DNA from: Paracoccaceae bacterium
Lineage (GTDB): Bacteria; Pseudomonadota; Alphaproteobacteria; Rhodobacterales; Rhodobacteraceae
DNA: 32,499 nucleotides
Direction of reading: 5' to 3'
NCBI GenBank assembly: GCA_007694945.1
Contig: REER01000142.1
Span: forward strand, 1 to 32,499
In this document: piece after piece, positions 19,057-25,579 of the stretch
Layout of the letters: each line of letters starts with the position of its first letter
Numbering within the stretch: the stretch's first letter is position 1
Translations under genes and position numbers: made by a program
Notes under the pieces: model-generated
What the model saw: the letters and a program-made list of their open reading frames with translations, nothing else
What the model was told of the DNA's origin: nothing
Database searches by the model: none

Positions 19057-19151
19057 TCTGACTGTGCATTCAGCACGCGCAGACACCTTGAACCCTCAGC
19101 CAATTGATCTGCGGGCATGCTAACGCGATCCACCAAGGGAGAGGAACCGTA

Positions 19152-19958
19152 ATGCACGCCAGCCCCACGACCCTAAGCCATCAGCGGAGCGCCGGAGCAG
19201 CCCGGGCCGGCTTTGCATTGCATAGCGGACAGGCTCGTCTCGCTACCCTCCGCCAGCAGGGATCAGCCAAGGCCATAGCCTTGGATGGCGGCGAGCTTGT
19301 TTTCCTCAACACCTCTGGCGGACTGACCGGCGGCGACCGGCTCGACTACGCGCTCACAGTGGGTGATGGCTGTCGAGTTACTGCCACAACCCAGACCGCC
19401 GAGCGGGTCTACAGGGCCTCGGACGGTGAGGCGCGGATGACTGTTCAGATGGACGTGAGCGAAGGTGGCCATCTCGACTGGCTCCCACAGGAAACAATCC
19501 TGTTCCAGCGCGGCTCGGCCCGGCGGCGGAGCATTATCACGCTGGGTCGCGCGGCGACCTGTCTTATGGCTGAGGCGCTCGTGCTCGGGCGAGCTGCCAT
19601 GGGCGAGACCGTGACGGAATTGGCGTTCCATGACTGGCGCGAAATTCAGCGTGATGGCGCCCCCGTTCATCTCGAAGTGCTGCGTCTGGATAATGACCGC
19701 TTGCGCCAGAGTGCAGGCGGTTTGGCGGATGCTCGTGCAGTTGCCTCGGTCGTGATGGTGGCGCCGGATGCCGCAGACGCGCTTGGTCCGGTGCGCGCCG
19801 CGCTAACAGAGCAGGGTTGCCGCTCAGCGGCCTCGGCCATGGGCGAGAGGCTGACCATCCGCCTGATGGCGCGCGACGGTTTCCCGCTGCGCCGGCAGTT
19901 GGCACAGATCCTCACCCTTCTACGCCGCGCGCCACTCCCGCGTGTCTGGCAAATCTGA
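19152..19958 (+). CDS. ureD: Urease accessory protein UreD
   Basis: 268 residues. UreD is the scaffold that binds apo-urease together with UreF and UreG for nickel insertion. Diagnostic segments are [43 protein letters not shown] and [11 protein letters not shown]. The ATG at 19152 follows GGGAGAGGAA; an upstream in-frame start at 19104 lacks a ribosome-binding site. First gene of a nine-gene urease operon, divergent from the 2-aminobenzoyl-CoA operon across 241 bases. Confidence 0.95.
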
Positions 19959-19968
19959 CGGAGGCTCC

Positions 19969-20271
19969 ATGAACCTGACCCCCCGCGAAAAGGACAAGCT
20001 GCTGGTCTCTCTGGCCGCGATGGTCGCGCGCAACCGGTTGGCGCGCGACGTCAAGCTCAACCATCCCGAGGCGATCGCGCTGATCACCGATTTCGTGGTC
20101 GAGGGCGCGCGCGACGGGCGCTCGGTGGCCGATCTGATGGAAGCGGGTGCGCACGTCATTACAGCCGATCAGTGCATGAAGGGCGTGCCCGAGATAATCC
20201 AGTCCGTGCAAGTCGAGGCGACATTTCCCGACGGCACCAAACTCGTCACTGTCCACCACCCTATCCGCTGA
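19969..20271 (+). CDS. ureA: Urease gamma subunit
   Basis: 100 residues, exactly the family length. Structural subunit of the (alpha-beta-gamma)3 enzyme. It begins [20 protein letters not shown], contains [21 protein letters not shown], and ends with [19 protein letters not shown], all strongly conserved. GGAGG lies just upstream of the ATG, ten bases after the ureD stop. Separate gamma and beta genes, not fused as in Helicobacter. Confidence 0.97.
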
Positions 20272-20283
20272 GAGGTCCAGACC

Positions 20284-21420
20284 ATGCGTTTTCTGTTGCC
20301 GATTTTGCTGCTCGCGCCGACGGCGCTGATGGCCCATCCGGGGCATGACCATGGCGACGGCTTTGCCGCGGGGCTGGCGCATCCGCTGCTGGGGCTGGAT
20401 CATCTGGTGGCGATGCTGGCCGTTGGCGTGCTGGCTGCGCGGCTGGGTGGGCATGCGCGCTGGGCGTTGCCGGGCAGTTTTCTGGGTGGGGTGCTGGCGC
20501 TCGGCCTGCTGGGTTTCGGCGGCGCGGAAAGCGCGCTCGTGCAGCATCTGGTCATCGCCTCGATAGTCGTCCTCGGCGGGGTGCTGGCGCTGGCGCTGCG
20601 CCCGCCGCTGGTGGTTGTCGTTGCCGTTGCCGCGATCTTCGGCGCTGCGCATGGCTATGCCCATGGGACCGGGGCCGCCGGGGATGGCGGTTATCTGCTG
20701 GGATTCCTTCTGGCCACGGCGGCGCTGCATGGCGCTGGGCTGGCGCTGGGGCACTGGCTCGGCTCCGGCCGGTTGGCACCGGCGGTGCGCCCGCTGGGCG
20801 CAGCGGCGGTCGCCGCAGGGATCTGGCTGATGGTCACGCCCGAGGCGTCACATTCGGTAGCCCCAAGCTTGCCAGACGGAGGAGCGGATCATGCGCACAG
20901 TCATGATCACGGGCACAGCCATGACCATGATCGCGGCCATAGCCACAGTCACGATCTTGCACACACGCATGACCACGCTGAGGCCAACGACCCGCAGGTC
21001 GAGCACTGGATCCGCCTCGGCAGTGCTGTGCATGGTGGCTTCGGCTCGCTCATCGCCGCAGGGATCATCTTGGGCGAGGCCGGACTAGAGGCCGTCGCGC
21101 CCGAGGGCCGCTTCGATCTTCTGGTCAGCTATCGCAGTCATCCGAACGCGCCCTGCCCCTGTGTGATCGACGGGCTGCAGGTCGCAACAGGGGCATCGCT
21201 CGGGCAGGGCACGCTTGTCCTTGAACCTGACCCCGCGCCGGAGGATGCCTTCGGCGTTGCTACCTTTACCAATCGCGCGACCGGCGCTGTCTGGCAAGCG
21301 ATCATCCCGATATCCGCCTGGCCCGAACTGGCAGAGGCCAATAATGACACCAGCCCGCAGGAACGATGGCAGATCGTGGCCGGGATGGCGGATCTGTTCA
21401 CCCTCGAAAGGCTGGAGTGA
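20284..21420 (+). CDS. ureJ: UreJ fusion: HupE/UreJ permease + His-rich linker + FmdE-like domain
   Basis: 378 residues, about twice a normal UreJ (~190). Residues 1-188 are HupE/UreJ: a signal-like start, the AHPGHDH motif (17-23), [13 protein letters not shown] (33-45), and several transmembrane helices with AAHGYAHG. These proteins are thought to import nickel. Residues 203-231 are a His/Asp linker of repeated H-S-H-D units. Residues ~246-350 resemble FmdE of formylmethanofuran dehydrogenase: an HGGFG..IAAG helix (H250), then [20 protein letters not shown] (290-309), matching the family pattern 'C.vDGiQvaTGaTlGkG'. C291/C293 and H250 could bind metal. The frame is unbroken and lies between ureA and ureB. 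Its likely job is nickel capture for urease. Confidence 0.85.
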
Positions 21421-21425
21421 GTCAC

Positions 21426-21755
21426 ATGGCCACAACTCCCTCAGGTGGCTTTGTGCCCGGGCAGATCATCACCGCCGAAGGCGAGATCACCCTGAACCCC
21501 GACGCGCCGGTGACTGTCCTGATGGTTGCCAACACCGGCGACAGGCCCGTGCAGGTCGGCAGCCATTACCATTTTGCCGAGACCAATCCGGGGCTGTCGT
21601 TTGACCGCGAGGCCGCTCGAGGAATGCGACTTGATATTCCCGCCGGAACGGCCGTGCGCTTCGAGCCGGGCCAGAGTCGTGAGGTCGCGCTGGTGCCATA
21701 TTCGGGCGGGCGCATGGTCTACGGGTTCAATGCCAAGGTTATGGGGGCGCTCTGA
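21426..21755 (+). CDS. ureB: Urease beta subunit
   Basis: 109 residues. Structural beta subunit: [60 protein letters not shown] and [16 protein letters not shown] are all family landmarks. The ATG at 21426 follows GGAG that overlaps the end of ureJ. Its stop shares one base with the ureC start (TGATG at 21753-21757), so the two are translationally coupled. The upstream extension of the frame to 21366 lies within ureJ and is not real. Confidence 0.96.
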
Positions 21756-23476
21756 TGGCCTACACAATTTCCCGCGCCGCCTATGCTGACATGTATGGCC
21801 CGACTGTGGGTGATAAAGTCCGCTTGGGCGACACCGACCTGATCATTGAGGTCGAGCGCGACCTGATCGCCGAGCGCGGCGGCTATGGCGAAGAGGTCAA
21901 GTTCGGCGGCGGCAAGGTCATCCGCGACGGCATGGGCCAGAGCCAGGTCACCCGCTCGGATGGCGCGATGGACACGGTCATCACCAGTGCGCTGATCGTG
22001 GACTATACGGGCATCTACAAGGCCGATGTGGGCTTGCGCGACGGACAGATCGTCAAGATCGGCAAAGCGGGAAACCCTGACACGCAGTTCGGCACAGATG
22101 TGATCATCGGACCGGGCACCGAAATCATCGCCGCCGAGGGCAAGATACTCACCGCCGGGGGTTTCGACGCGCATATCCATTTCATCTGCCCGCAACAGAT
22201 TGACGACGCGCTGCATTCGGGCCTCACGACAATGCTCGGCGGCGGCACTGGCCCCGCTCATGGCACGCTGGCGACCACCTGCACCCCCGGGCCCTGGCAT
22301 ATCGGGCGGATGTTGCAGGCAGCGGATGCGTTTGCCATGAACCTCGCCTTCGCAGGCAAGGGCAATGCGTCGCTGCCCGACGCGCTGCATGAGCAGGTCC
22401 GCGCAGGCGCCTGCGCGCTGAAACTGCACGAGGATTGGGGCACGACCCCTGCCGCCATCGACAACTGCCTGTCCGTGGCCGAGGCGACCGATGTGCAGGT
22501 GATGATCCACACGGACACGCTGAACGAATCGGGCTTTGTGGAAAACACGATCAACGCCATCGGCGGGCGCACCATCCACGCCTTTCATACCGAGGGCGCG
22601 GGCGGCGGCCATGCGCCCGACATCATCAAGGTGGTCAGCAGCCAGAACATCTTGCCCAGCTCCACCAACCCGACCATGCCCTACACGGTCAACACGATCG
22701 AGGAACACCTCGATATGTTGATGGTTTGCCACCATCTGGACCGCAAGGTGCCCGAGGATGTGGCTTTTGCCGAATCGCGCATCCGGCGCGAGACGATCGC
22801 CGCCGAGGATATCCTGCACGACATGGGCGCGTTTTCGGTCATGGCGTCCGACAGTCAGGCGATGGGGCGCGTTGGCGAGGTGATCACCCGGACGTGGCAG
22901 ACCGCGCACAAGATGAAGCTGCAACGCGGGCGGCTGGCCGAGGAACAGGGCACGAATGACAACATGCGCGTGCGTCGATACGTGGCGAAATACACGATCA
23001 ACCCTGCCATCGTGCATGGCCTCAGCCGCCATATCGGCAGTATCGAGGAAGGCAAACGCGCGGACCTGTGCCTCTGGGCACCTGCGTTTTTCGGTGCCAA
23101 GCCCGAGATGGTGCTGATTGGCGGCGCGATTGTCGTGGCACAGATGGGCGACCCGAACGCCTCAATTCCGACCCCGCAGCCCGTGCATTCGCGCCCCATG
23201 TTCGGCGCTTATGGCCGCGCAGTCGAGCAGAACGCCGTTACCTTCGTTTCTCAAGCTGCGCAGGAGGGTGGCGTGCGCGCCGCACTTGGACTTGCAAAGA
23301 ACACGCTGCCGGTCGAGGGCTGCCGGGGCATTCGCAAAGCCGACATGAATCTCAACAGCGCCACACCTGAGATCGAAGTCGACCCCGAAACCTATGAAGT
23401 GCGTGCGGATGGCGAGCTTTTGACCTGCGAACCTGCGGCAGAATTGCCACTGGCGCAACGCTACTTCTTGTACTGA
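21755..23476 (+). CDS. ureC: Urease alpha (catalytic) subunit
   Basis: 573 residues. Catalytic subunit with the bi-nickel centre that hydrolyses urea to ammonia and carbamate. Key residues are all visible: H140 and H142 in DAHIHF, the carbamylated lysine K223 in [11 protein letters not shown]252 in [11 protein letters not shown]278 in [12 protein letters not shown], the flap C325 in MVCHHLDR, and D366 in [10 protein letters not shown]. Length and end (PLAQRYFLY; canonical RYFLF) fit the family. A complete and probably active enzyme. A long frame on the opposite strand (21719-23032) is a codon-bias shadow. Confidence 0.98.
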
Positions 23477-23607
23477 ACAACGAACGGTGCGCAACTATCA
23501 GGCAAATTTCATGACTTATCCAGATATTTCTGCGGCGCAGCAAAACGTGAACAGTGCGCGAGGTCAGTCGACAGCATATTCATGTTATGCTGCCACAAGG
23601 GAGGAAC

Positions 23608-23619
23608 ATGACTGCCTGA
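23608..23619 (+). other. Three-codon mini-ORF with a strong ribosome-binding site
   Basis: AAGGGAGGAAC is followed immediately by ATG-ACT-GCC-TGA. Its stop overlaps an ATG (23619) in frame with the next small gene. This is the best Shine-Dalgarno in the gap after ureC, yet it drives only Met-Thr-Ala. It may be a translational landing site coupling ribosomes to the next gene, or chance. Confidence 0.35.
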
Positions 23620-23630
23620 TGGAGAGTGCA

Positions 23631-23861
23631 ATGCTTCGTCCCGCCAATTCCACCCTCAGCCCCACACAATCCATGCAGCTAGACTGGTTCCTTGCCGAGA
23701 CCGGGCTCGGCTGCAACCCCTCACTCGAACGCAGGGCGCGTGAGGCCGAATTCGCCCGGCTCAGCGCCCTGCCCGATGGTGCATTGCGCTCGATGGGCCT
23801 CTCGCGTCCGAGCCTGCCTGCTCATGTCTATCGTGATCTTTTCCCGAAAGGTGTCTCATGA
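23631..23861 (+). CDS. Small protein with DUF1127-like C-terminus inside the urease operon
   Basis: 76 residues (MLRPANSTLSPTQS...). No known urease function. The C-terminal half, ERRAREAEFARLSALPDGAL then RSMGLSRPSLPAHVYRDLF, resembles the 'reLarLsdreLadiGlsR' pattern of DUF1127 (YjiS-like) proteins, often small and basic. The start at 23631 has GGAGAG upstream; the ATG at 23619 (four residues longer) is the alternative, coupled to a three-codon mini-ORF. It overlaps ureE by four bases (ATGA at 23858), so it belongs to the operon. The 154 bases between it and ureC are the largest gap in the operon and might hold an internal promoter, none convincing. Confidence 0.72.
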   Translation: MLRPANSTLSPTQSMQLDWFLAETGLGCNPSLERRAREAEFARLSALPDGALRSMGLSRPSLPAHVYRDLFPKGVS

Positions 23862-24331
23862 CTGATCTGCCCCCCGTGCGCCGCTTGCTCAAGAGTCGTC
23901 CCGACCGCTGCGATGGTGCCGTGATCCTCGATTACGACGCACGTCTTATCCGACGCAAACGGCTGGAAACGGCCGAAGGTCGCGGCTTTCTGGTCGATTT
24001 GGCCGAAGTCACCAATCTCGATGCGTGGTGGGGATTCGAACTGGAAGATGGCAGCGCGCTCGAAATCGTCCCCGCTGATGAGGCTCTGGTCGAGGTCACA
24101 GGAGAGTTGCCGCGCCTCGCCTGGCATATCGGCAATCGCCACACCCCCTGCCAGATCGAGGAGAACCGCCTGCTGATCCGCCATGACCATGTGATCGAAG
24201 CCATGCTGGCCCAGTTGGGCGCCGTTTTACGCCCGATCCGGGGGCCCTTCACGCCCGAGGGCGGCGCTTATGGGCATGGCCGCACAATGGGGCACGATCA
24301 TGGCCACGCTCACGCCCATGCTCACGCCTGA
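23858..24331 (+). CDS. ureE: Urease accessory nickel metallochaperone UreE
   Basis: 157 residues. Delivers nickel to the UreDFG complex. The N-terminal substrate-like domain contains LIRRKRLETAEGRGFLVDL. The metal-binding domain contains LAWHIGNRHTPCQIEENRLLIRHDHVI with the conserved dimer-interface histidine region (H109-H111). The C-terminus [13 protein letters not shown] is a His-rich tail that stores extra nickel in many UreE proteins. Together with the His linker of UreJ, the operon encodes two histidine-rich nickel-binding segments. It overlaps ureF by up to 32 bases. Confidence 0.95.
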   Translation: MTDLPPVRRLLKSRPDRCDGAVILDYDARLIRRKRLETAEGRGFLVDLAEVTNLDAWWGFELEDGSALEIVPADEALVEVTGELPRLAWHIGNRHTPCQIEENRLLIRHDHVIEAMLAQLGAVLRPIRGPFTPEGGAYGHGRTMGHDHGHAHAHAHA

Positions 24332-24956
24332 AGCTCTGACGCTCCAGCACTGGCTCTCGCCCGCCTTCCCGACCGGGGCTTTCGCCTATAGCCACGGATT
24401 GGAGCAGTTGGTCGCGGACGGCGTGGTCCAGGATGCCGCAACGCTGGAGCTTTGGCTTGCCGAACTGTTGCGCTTCGGGACGGGCTGGCAGGACAGCGTG
24501 CTGATCGCACAGGGACTGGCTTCGGGGGCGGATTTTGAGGCGCTAGACGTAATCGCAACGGCGCTGCAGCCCTGCGCCGAACGCTTGCAGGAGAGCCGCG
24601 AGCAGGGCGCGGCTTTCGCCCGTACGGTCGCGGCGATCACGGGCCGGAACCTGCCTGAGCGCAGCCTGCCAGTAGCGATAGCCGAAGCGGCAGCCCCTCT
24701 GGGGCTGCCGTGCGATGAAATCATCCCAGTATATCTTCAGGCATTTGCAACCAACCTCGTGACAATTGCCATCCGTCATGTGCCCTTGGGCCAGAGTGAC
24801 GGGCACGGGGTGCTGGCGCGCCTGCTGCCGACGTTGCCCGACCTGGGGGCGCGCGCTTCGCGCGCGACTCTCGAGGATCTGGGAAGTTCCTGTTTCGCTG
24901 CCGATATGGCAGCATTCCTGCATGAAACCAAAGATGTGAGGCTCTTTCGGACATGA
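24300..24956 (+). CDS. ureF: Urease accessory protein UreF
   Basis: 218 residues. UreF bridges UreD and UreG and gates nickel transfer. Family marks: [21 protein letters not shown] near the N-terminus, [38 protein letters not shown], and the end of type [16 protein letters not shown]. Two starts are possible: ATG 24300, chosen for a GGGG upstream, and ATG 24318, with no ribosome-binding site. Either overlaps the His-rich tail codons of ureE. ATGA overlap with ureG at 24953. Confidence 0.93.
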
Positions 24957-25579
24957 ACAGACATGGACCCCTGCGGGTGGGTATCGGCGGCCCGGTTGGT
25001 GCAGGCAAGACGACACTGACCGAGAAACTGGCACGCGCACTCGCGCCGCGCTGCTCGATGGCCGTCATCACCAATGACATCTACACCCGCGAAGATGCCG
25101 AGGCGCTGATGCGCGCGCAGGTCTTGCCTGCCCAACGCATCCGGGGTGTTGAGACCGGGGGCTGCCCGCATACGGCCATTCGCGAGGATGCGAGCATCAA
25201 CCTCGCGGCCGTAGCCGACCTGAACCGACAGATTCCGGGGCTGGACTTGGTCCTGATTGAATCGGGCGGTGACAATCTGGCCGCGACCTTCTCTCCCGAA
25301 CTGGCCGATCTGACGATCTATGTGATCGACACCGCCGCCGGACAGGACATTCCGCGCAAGCGTGGGCCGGGGCTGACAAAATCCGACCTTCTGGTAGTGA
25401 ACAAGATCGACCTTGCGCCATATGTTGGCGTCGATCTCAGCCAGCTTGAGAGGGATACGCGCAACGCACGCGAAACGCGCCCCTATGTCCTCGCGCGTCT
25501 GCGCGAGAGTGCAGGCGTTACCGAGATCGTCGCCTTTCTGGAACGCGAGGGAGGACTTGAGCTGAAACCCGCCGCATAA
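24953..25579 (+). CDS. ureG: Urease accessory GTPase UreG
   Basis: 208 residues. GTP-dependent nickel insertion into urease. P-loop GPVGAGKT at 13-20, the invariant nickel-binding C71-P-H73 motif in [28 protein letters not shown], and the guanine-specificity motif NKID (150-153). Last gene of the urease operon; a strong hairpin follows 20 bases after the stop. Confidence 0.97.

Follow-up and report, generated by a model that had tools for sequence, protein, structure and literature searches.

The closest concept to the protein reported here is that of the anglerases, metal-binding domains carried by HupE/UreJ_2 permeases (PMC12537917). In the parts of that 2025 paper that introduce them, Ang-1 and Ang-2 are N-terminal domains proposed to catch metal and to feed the channel, and the Ang-1 domain is reported to bind copper, with a dissociation constant of about 74 nM, and nickel (220 nM) (PMC12537917). 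FmdE domains also occur in fusions: those named in the passages of a 2010 paper that deal with them involve a molybdopterin-binding domain and UPF0066, together with a zinc-finger form, and none of these is to a permease (PMC2954224). Here we describe a gene at positions 20284 to 21420 of a 32,499-nucleotide stretch of DNA from a Paracoccaceae bacterium (assembly GCA_007694945.1, contig REER01000142.1; the whole stretch is called the window below). It lies in a urease cluster and encodes a single protein that joins a UreJ permease, a His-rich linker and an FmdE-family domain. We give roughly half of our credence to the reading that this is a urease-operon nickel permease with a tethered periplasmic metal-capture domain, which would bind Ni(II) or another late transition metal and feed the permease. 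The likeness to the anglerases would then be that a permease of the HupE/UreJ type carries a tethered domain that binds metal in the periplasm. Nevertheless, whereas the anglerase domain is described in that paper as an N-terminal beta-sandwich with a His1 site on a PF13795 permease (PMC12537917), the domain of the fusion is C-terminal, of FmdE type, and joined to a PF04955 permease in a urease operon. The fusion lacks both an N-terminal His1 domain and PF13795, and its domain model, of modest confidence, is alpha+beta and not an immunoglobulin-like beta-sandwich.

Architecture of the fusion gene

The first-pass annotation of the window had described an unbroken frame of 378 codons between ureA and ureB, starting as a normal HupE/UreJ permease and ending, behind a His-rich linker, in an FmdE-like domain. 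This description is borne out: the frame is open, and the UreA and UreB neighbours are confirmed. The parts of the gene are the following (window coordinates).

20284..21420, + strand: ureJ-FmdE fusion gene, 378 amino acids; open frame with ATG start and TGA stop
20284..20334, + strand: signal-peptide-like segment, residues 1-17 (sequence inspection and hydropathy)
20335..20847, + strand: HupE/UreJ permease part, residues 18-188 (PF04955); six presumed helices, both ends presumed periplasmic
20848..20991, + strand: linker, residues 189-236; His-rich core, residues 203-231, at 20890-20976
20992..21417, + strand: C-terminal FmdE-type domain, residues 237-378; Pfam match at 249-357
21031..21033, + strand: H250, counterpart of the 2glz metal ligand His15
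21154..21162, + strand: C291-P292-C293; C293 is the counterpart of 2glz Cys55, C291 is extra

The permease part matches the Pfam family HupE_UreJ (PF04955) over residues 8-182 (E = 2.9e-40; 138.1 bits against a cut-off of 23). It shares with this family the whole permease domain, a signal-peptide-like start, a His-rich mature N-terminus and six presumed helices, as well as the position after ureA that is also seen in sister genomes, and differs in length, since ten unfused proteins of the genus have 184-193 amino acids and the fusion 378. The hidden Markov model search against FmdE (PF02663) that had been proposed for the C-terminal part gives a match at residues 249-357 (E = 1.6e-9; 38.4 bits against a cut-off of 22.9, and 40.6 bits when the whole genome is searched). 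Thirteen of the 29 residues of the linker core are His, and the 17-residue FmdE-like signature (residues 293-309), H250 and C291 are all where they had been placed; C291 and C293 are the only Cys of the protein. At the N-terminus, the signal-peptide-like stretch closes with ALMA and is followed by HPGHDHG, the His of which (His18) is the presumed mature start. The pattern HX5DH, which we take to be a HupE/UreJ motif, occurs as H33-PLLGL-D39-H40. The first-pass annotation mentioned neither this N-terminus nor two features discussed below, the loss of half of the FmdE metal-site motif and the lack of the linker in one of three fused proteins.

Conservation and distribution of the fusion

The same fusion, free of stops and again between ureA and ureB, was found in two other assemblies. 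The first (G316, SLJW01000270) is a Rhodobacteraceae metagenome-assembled genome of the same genus, whose 378-residue protein has 92% identity over its whole length with that of the source genome of the window (G000). The second (G124, CALIZF010000028) is an uncultured Rhodobacteraceae metagenome-assembled genome of another genus, in which the protein has 350 residues from its likely start and 50% identity. The recurrence of one architecture in separate assemblies, and the fact that a separate FmdE gene was not found in the source genome, leave next to no probability to an assembly or annotation artefact uniting two genes, for which no supporting point was found. The ratio of nonsynonymous to synonymous substitution rates (dN/dS) between G000 and G316 is 0.25 in the C-terminal domain and 0.22 in the UreJ part, compared with 0.07 in ureC and 0.06 in ureA; the fusion gene is thus under purifying selection, weaker than that on ureC or ureA. 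Chance does not account for the fusion: each domain scores above its curated cut-off, two further genomes repeat the architecture at the same site, and selection on the C-terminal part is purifying. The His-rich linker is present in both proteins from the genus and absent from that of G124, so it is an accessory, and the notion of a three-part protein stands for two of the three fused proteins.

The synonymous rate (dS) between G000 and G316 is uneven along the gene, at 0.081 in the UreJ half (20284-20847), 0.444 in the linker and 0.235 in the FmdE half (both within 20848-21417). This contrast between the UreJ half and the linker/FmdE half may reflect recombination inside the fusion gene.

The fusion is rare. 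PF02663 was matched in two of 248 genomes drawn from the family, and the FmdE-type domain of the fusion, used as a query, matched three of 295 family genomes, one of them spuriously; elsewhere it matched 2/37 genomes of the genus, 1/81 relatives of G124 and 1/385 genomes of the class. HupE/UreJ, for its part, was matched in 141 of the 295 family genomes. A survey of UreJ lengths, which the first-pass annotation had suggested, covered the 98 strongest HupE/UreJ matches of the family (E <= 1.8e-18; G316 lies outside this sample), and the domain is present in only two of them, G000 and G124. Among the other 96, 43 unfused frames have tails of 3-25 amino acids past the Pfam match, the frames read including every strong match with an open frame of more than 260 amino acids; the remaining 53 are stop-to-stop frames of at most 260 amino acids and therefore too short to hold both permease and domain. 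The unfused proteins of the genus whose length is given above are ten UreJ encoded after ureA (loci L007 and L009-L017, L012 being measured from its likely start), and ureB was also recognised in seven of these loci. Two other HupE/UreJ frames, one with an in-frame TAG (L089, G180:C307) and one matched in two overlapping pieces (G194:C44), are likely broken copies or assembly errors.

In a tree built from 14 UreJ domains, no single clade unites the fused ones: those of G000 and G316 branch among unfused members of the genus (support 100/99), that of G124 is a long branch, and the approximately unbiased (AU) test rejects a single clade (p = 0.0006). To explain this topology, the domain may have been gained twice, or gained once and then lost in places, or it may have moved. 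Such patchiness, like the rarity of the fusion, would also suit a recent and functionally minor addition, in which a stray FmdE-type domain has little effect on UreJ. Yet the domain is intact, with invariant motifs, in three genomes of two genera, and its dN/dS likewise speaks against a scenario that we regard as quite unlikely.

The FmdE-type domain and its free relatives

In the structure 2glz, metal is bound by His15, His17, Cys19 and Cys55, and the same site, HxHxC plus a Cys, is found in 2gvi; by the account given in the sections of the 2010 paper on these structures, the Syntrophus FmdE (3d00) has no metal at the site and lacks the counterparts of His15 and Cys19 (PMC2954224). Comparison of models finds in the fusion domain the FmdE-like alpha+beta core fold of 2glz, 2gvi and 3d00, and the domain keeps the counterparts of His15 (H250), Cys55 (C293), Asp58 (D296) and Gln61 (Q299). 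It differs from the family in reading HxGxG (H250, G252, G254) for HxHxC, in the extra Cys that makes CPC, in the replacement of Thr67 by S305, in being fused to a permease and in its presumed periplasmic location. Asp58, Gln61 and Thr67 make up the dimer-interface motif, in which the Nostoc relative described below has Met for Gln. H250, C291 and C293 are common to all four aligned sequences. Half of the metal site is lost; the FmdE family also includes 3d00, itself without two of the metal ligands. The earlier claim of metal binding through the family motif is weakened: of the four 2glz ligands only the equivalents H250 and C293 are kept, though a further conserved Cys, C291, stands close to C293. 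A metal-handling role is plausible.

A tblastn search of 72,556 plasmid records with the domain as query gave two matches at E 0.01, in Nostoc linckia NIES-25 and in Halorubrum. The Nostoc protein (P0002, BAY80389.1), a hypothetical protein of 179 amino acids with 37% identity over 88% of the query, matches PF02663 (E = 8.3e-13) and has the motifs HGGFGS and APCPC as in the fusion domain. It differs in being unfused, in beginning with a signal-peptide-like stretch of its own and in its setting, a conjugative plasmid on which its gene is flanked by the gene of a CsoR/RcnR-family regulator and by hypB (TIGR00073, 280 bits). A ZnuA-type metal ATP-binding cassette transporter is encoded nearby on the opposite strand, and the best solved match of the regulator is InrS, a nickel-responsive repressor (106 bits, the next match 65). 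The Halorubrum match is a canonical FmdE protein, whose gene adjoins those of TauE/SafE, CDF and ZIP transporters. These neighbours tie the family to metal; nickel is favoured only by hypB.

Other FmdE-type sequences were met along the way. Plasmid A of Trichormus variabilis (L061, 5950-6279) encodes a truncated relative that resembles P0002 in its C-terminal part only (52.7% identity over 41% of the query); genes for siderophore transport and for a chlorophyll a/b-binding protein lie next to it. Three Pseudomonadota proteins (L036-L038) have signal-peptide-like starts and the full HGHxC motif, and are secreted-looking members of another subgroup. In 14 more (L039-L048 and L053-L056) the motif reads (S/A/C)GH(A/S)CPT, so that of HxHxC only the first His is lost while the other His and the Cys are kept, a loss that differs from that in the subgroup of the fusion domain.

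That CPC is invariant in four sequences in which half of the metal site has disappeared could also point to a redox or gating module instead of a capture site: the CPC pair would form or exchange a disulfide in the periplasm, or the domain would bind an organic ligand such as a metal chelate, and the permease would be controlled in this way. The FmdE core has been called thioredoxin-like, and one member has an unknown ligand at the conserved Cys, as stated in the structural part of the 2010 paper (PMC2954224). Nevertheless, the present data give this alternative no direct support, the His-rich linker and N-terminus resemble metal-binding sequence and metal genes are among the neighbours of the Nostoc and Halorubrum relatives. 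It appears unlikely, while deserving some weight.

Side of the membrane

According to a review, in the portion that concerns them, mature HupE/UreJ proteins have six membrane domains (PMC4284471). The full-length model of the fusion protein, of low confidence, has a signal-like helix, a short helix at residues 25-32 and six long helices before the linker. Charges were counted in 14 UreJ proteins, that of the window and 13 relatives (three of the 14 are fused), with loop limits set by hand from this model. The loops after helices 1, 3 and 5 hold 59 Lys or Arg and one Asp or Glu; no Lys or Arg, but 47 Asp or Glu, occur in the N-terminus, the loops following helices 2 and 4 and the segment past helix 6. 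Given six helices and a removed signal peptide, this pattern suggests that both ends of UreJ are periplasmic, and the secreted look of P0002 agrees with a periplasmic placing of the FmdE-type domain.

The first-pass annotation had instead proposed that the added domain hands nickel over to UreE and UreG, which would require linker and domain to be cytoplasmic. The gene does lie in a urease operon with ureE and ureG, the tail of UreE is similarly His-rich, and in methanogens the partner enzyme of FmdE is cytoplasmic. Yet UreE and UreG are cytoplasmic proteins, while the charge bias, which for six helices fits a C-terminus outside, and the signal-peptide-like start of the free relative P0002 point to a periplasmic location of the domain, so that delivery to them is unlikely. 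The six long helices past the signal-like helix in the low-confidence full-length model also speak against the cytoplasmic hand-over, which we hold to be decidedly improbable.

Proposed role in nickel uptake

If the domain is a periplasmic capture module, removal of the signal peptide would leave a UreJ part with six membrane helices and both ends outside, from which the FmdE-type domain would hang in the periplasm on a flexible linker. There it would bind Ni(II) or another late transition metal at a reduced and re-made site formed by H250, C291, C293 and perhaps D296, and so make metal more concentrated around the permease's His-rich mouth. In two of the three fused proteins, the His-rich linker could act as an extra low-affinity trap. 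Nickel would cross via UreJ, and UreE and UreG would deliver it inside as usual.

Several points weigh against this reading. Gly (G252 and G254) stands in place of His17 and Cys19 in four of four aligned subgroup sequences, and 3d00, which is short of two ligands as well, has an empty metal site. The His-rich linker is missing from one of the three fused proteins. The Foldseek template modelling (TM) scores to FmdE structures are only 0.40-0.54, model confidence is modest to low (predicted local distance difference test, pLDDT, of 65 for the domain and 51 at full length), and it is from homology that H250, C291 and C293 are presumed to lie close together. A reporter-fusion study of the Rhizobium HupE reportedly arrived at five helices and a membrane-buried C-terminal part. 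In Nostoc a single locus provides the link to nickel, and in the alignment the InrS-like regulator encoded there (P0005, L059 7132-7440) has Tyr and Ser in place of His78 and Cys82, two of the three nickel ligands of InrS. Finally, since the fusion is so rare, relatives evidently do without the domain.

Tentatively, and with somewhat less than even confidence, the fusion could represent a second, unrelated kind of tethered capture: an FmdE-type periplasmic family with a re-made His/Cys-Pro-Cys site (HGGFGS...CPC), which occurs as a free protein encoded next to hypB in a cyanobacterium and as a C-terminal extension of UreJ in a few Rhodobacteraceae. Capture domains of different folds would then have been joined to HupE/UreJ permeases repeatedly, at opposite ends. 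If periplasmic capture is correct, urease-operon nickel permeases can carry their own capture domain, the poorly understood FmdE family gains, beyond the methanogens, a role in metal uptake that can be put to the test, and the anglerase proposal of 2025, that metal is captured by domains tethered to a permease, has an independent case. For free HGGFGS/CPC proteins like P0002, annotated only as hypothetical, the fused protein also offers a clue through domain association.

The urease cluster and its genome

The complete urease cluster has the order ureD, ureA, ureJ-fusion, ureB, ureC, a 124-amino-acid open reading frame (ORF), ureE, ureF and ureG.

19104..19958, + strand: ureD (PF01774)
19942..20271, + strand: ureA, gamma subunit (PF00547), directly upstream of the fusion gene
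21426..21755, + strand: ureB, beta subunit (PF00699), directly downstream of the fusion gene; the listed ORF begins further upstream, at 21366, whereas the start codon is probably the ATG at 21426
21755..23476, + strand: ureC, alpha subunit (PF00449, PF01979)
23487..23861, + strand: 124-amino-acid ORF between ureC and ureE, kept in G316
23858..24331, + strand: ureE (PF05194)
24270..24956, + strand: ureF (PF01730)
24953..25579, + strand: ureG (PF02492, CobW/HypB/UreG family)

The search of the source genome, which is 95% complete, gave no match to [NiFe] hydrogenase; the fusion gene is its sole FmdE match and its sole HupE/UreJ match, and there is a single frame with a match to NicO, a family of nickel/cobalt transporters. 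UreE has a His-rich tail of its own, similar in composition to the UreJ linker. The 124-amino-acid ORF, for which Pfam gives no match up to E 0.1, has 92.7% identity with its G316 counterpart and a dS of 0.071, against 0.364 in ureC.
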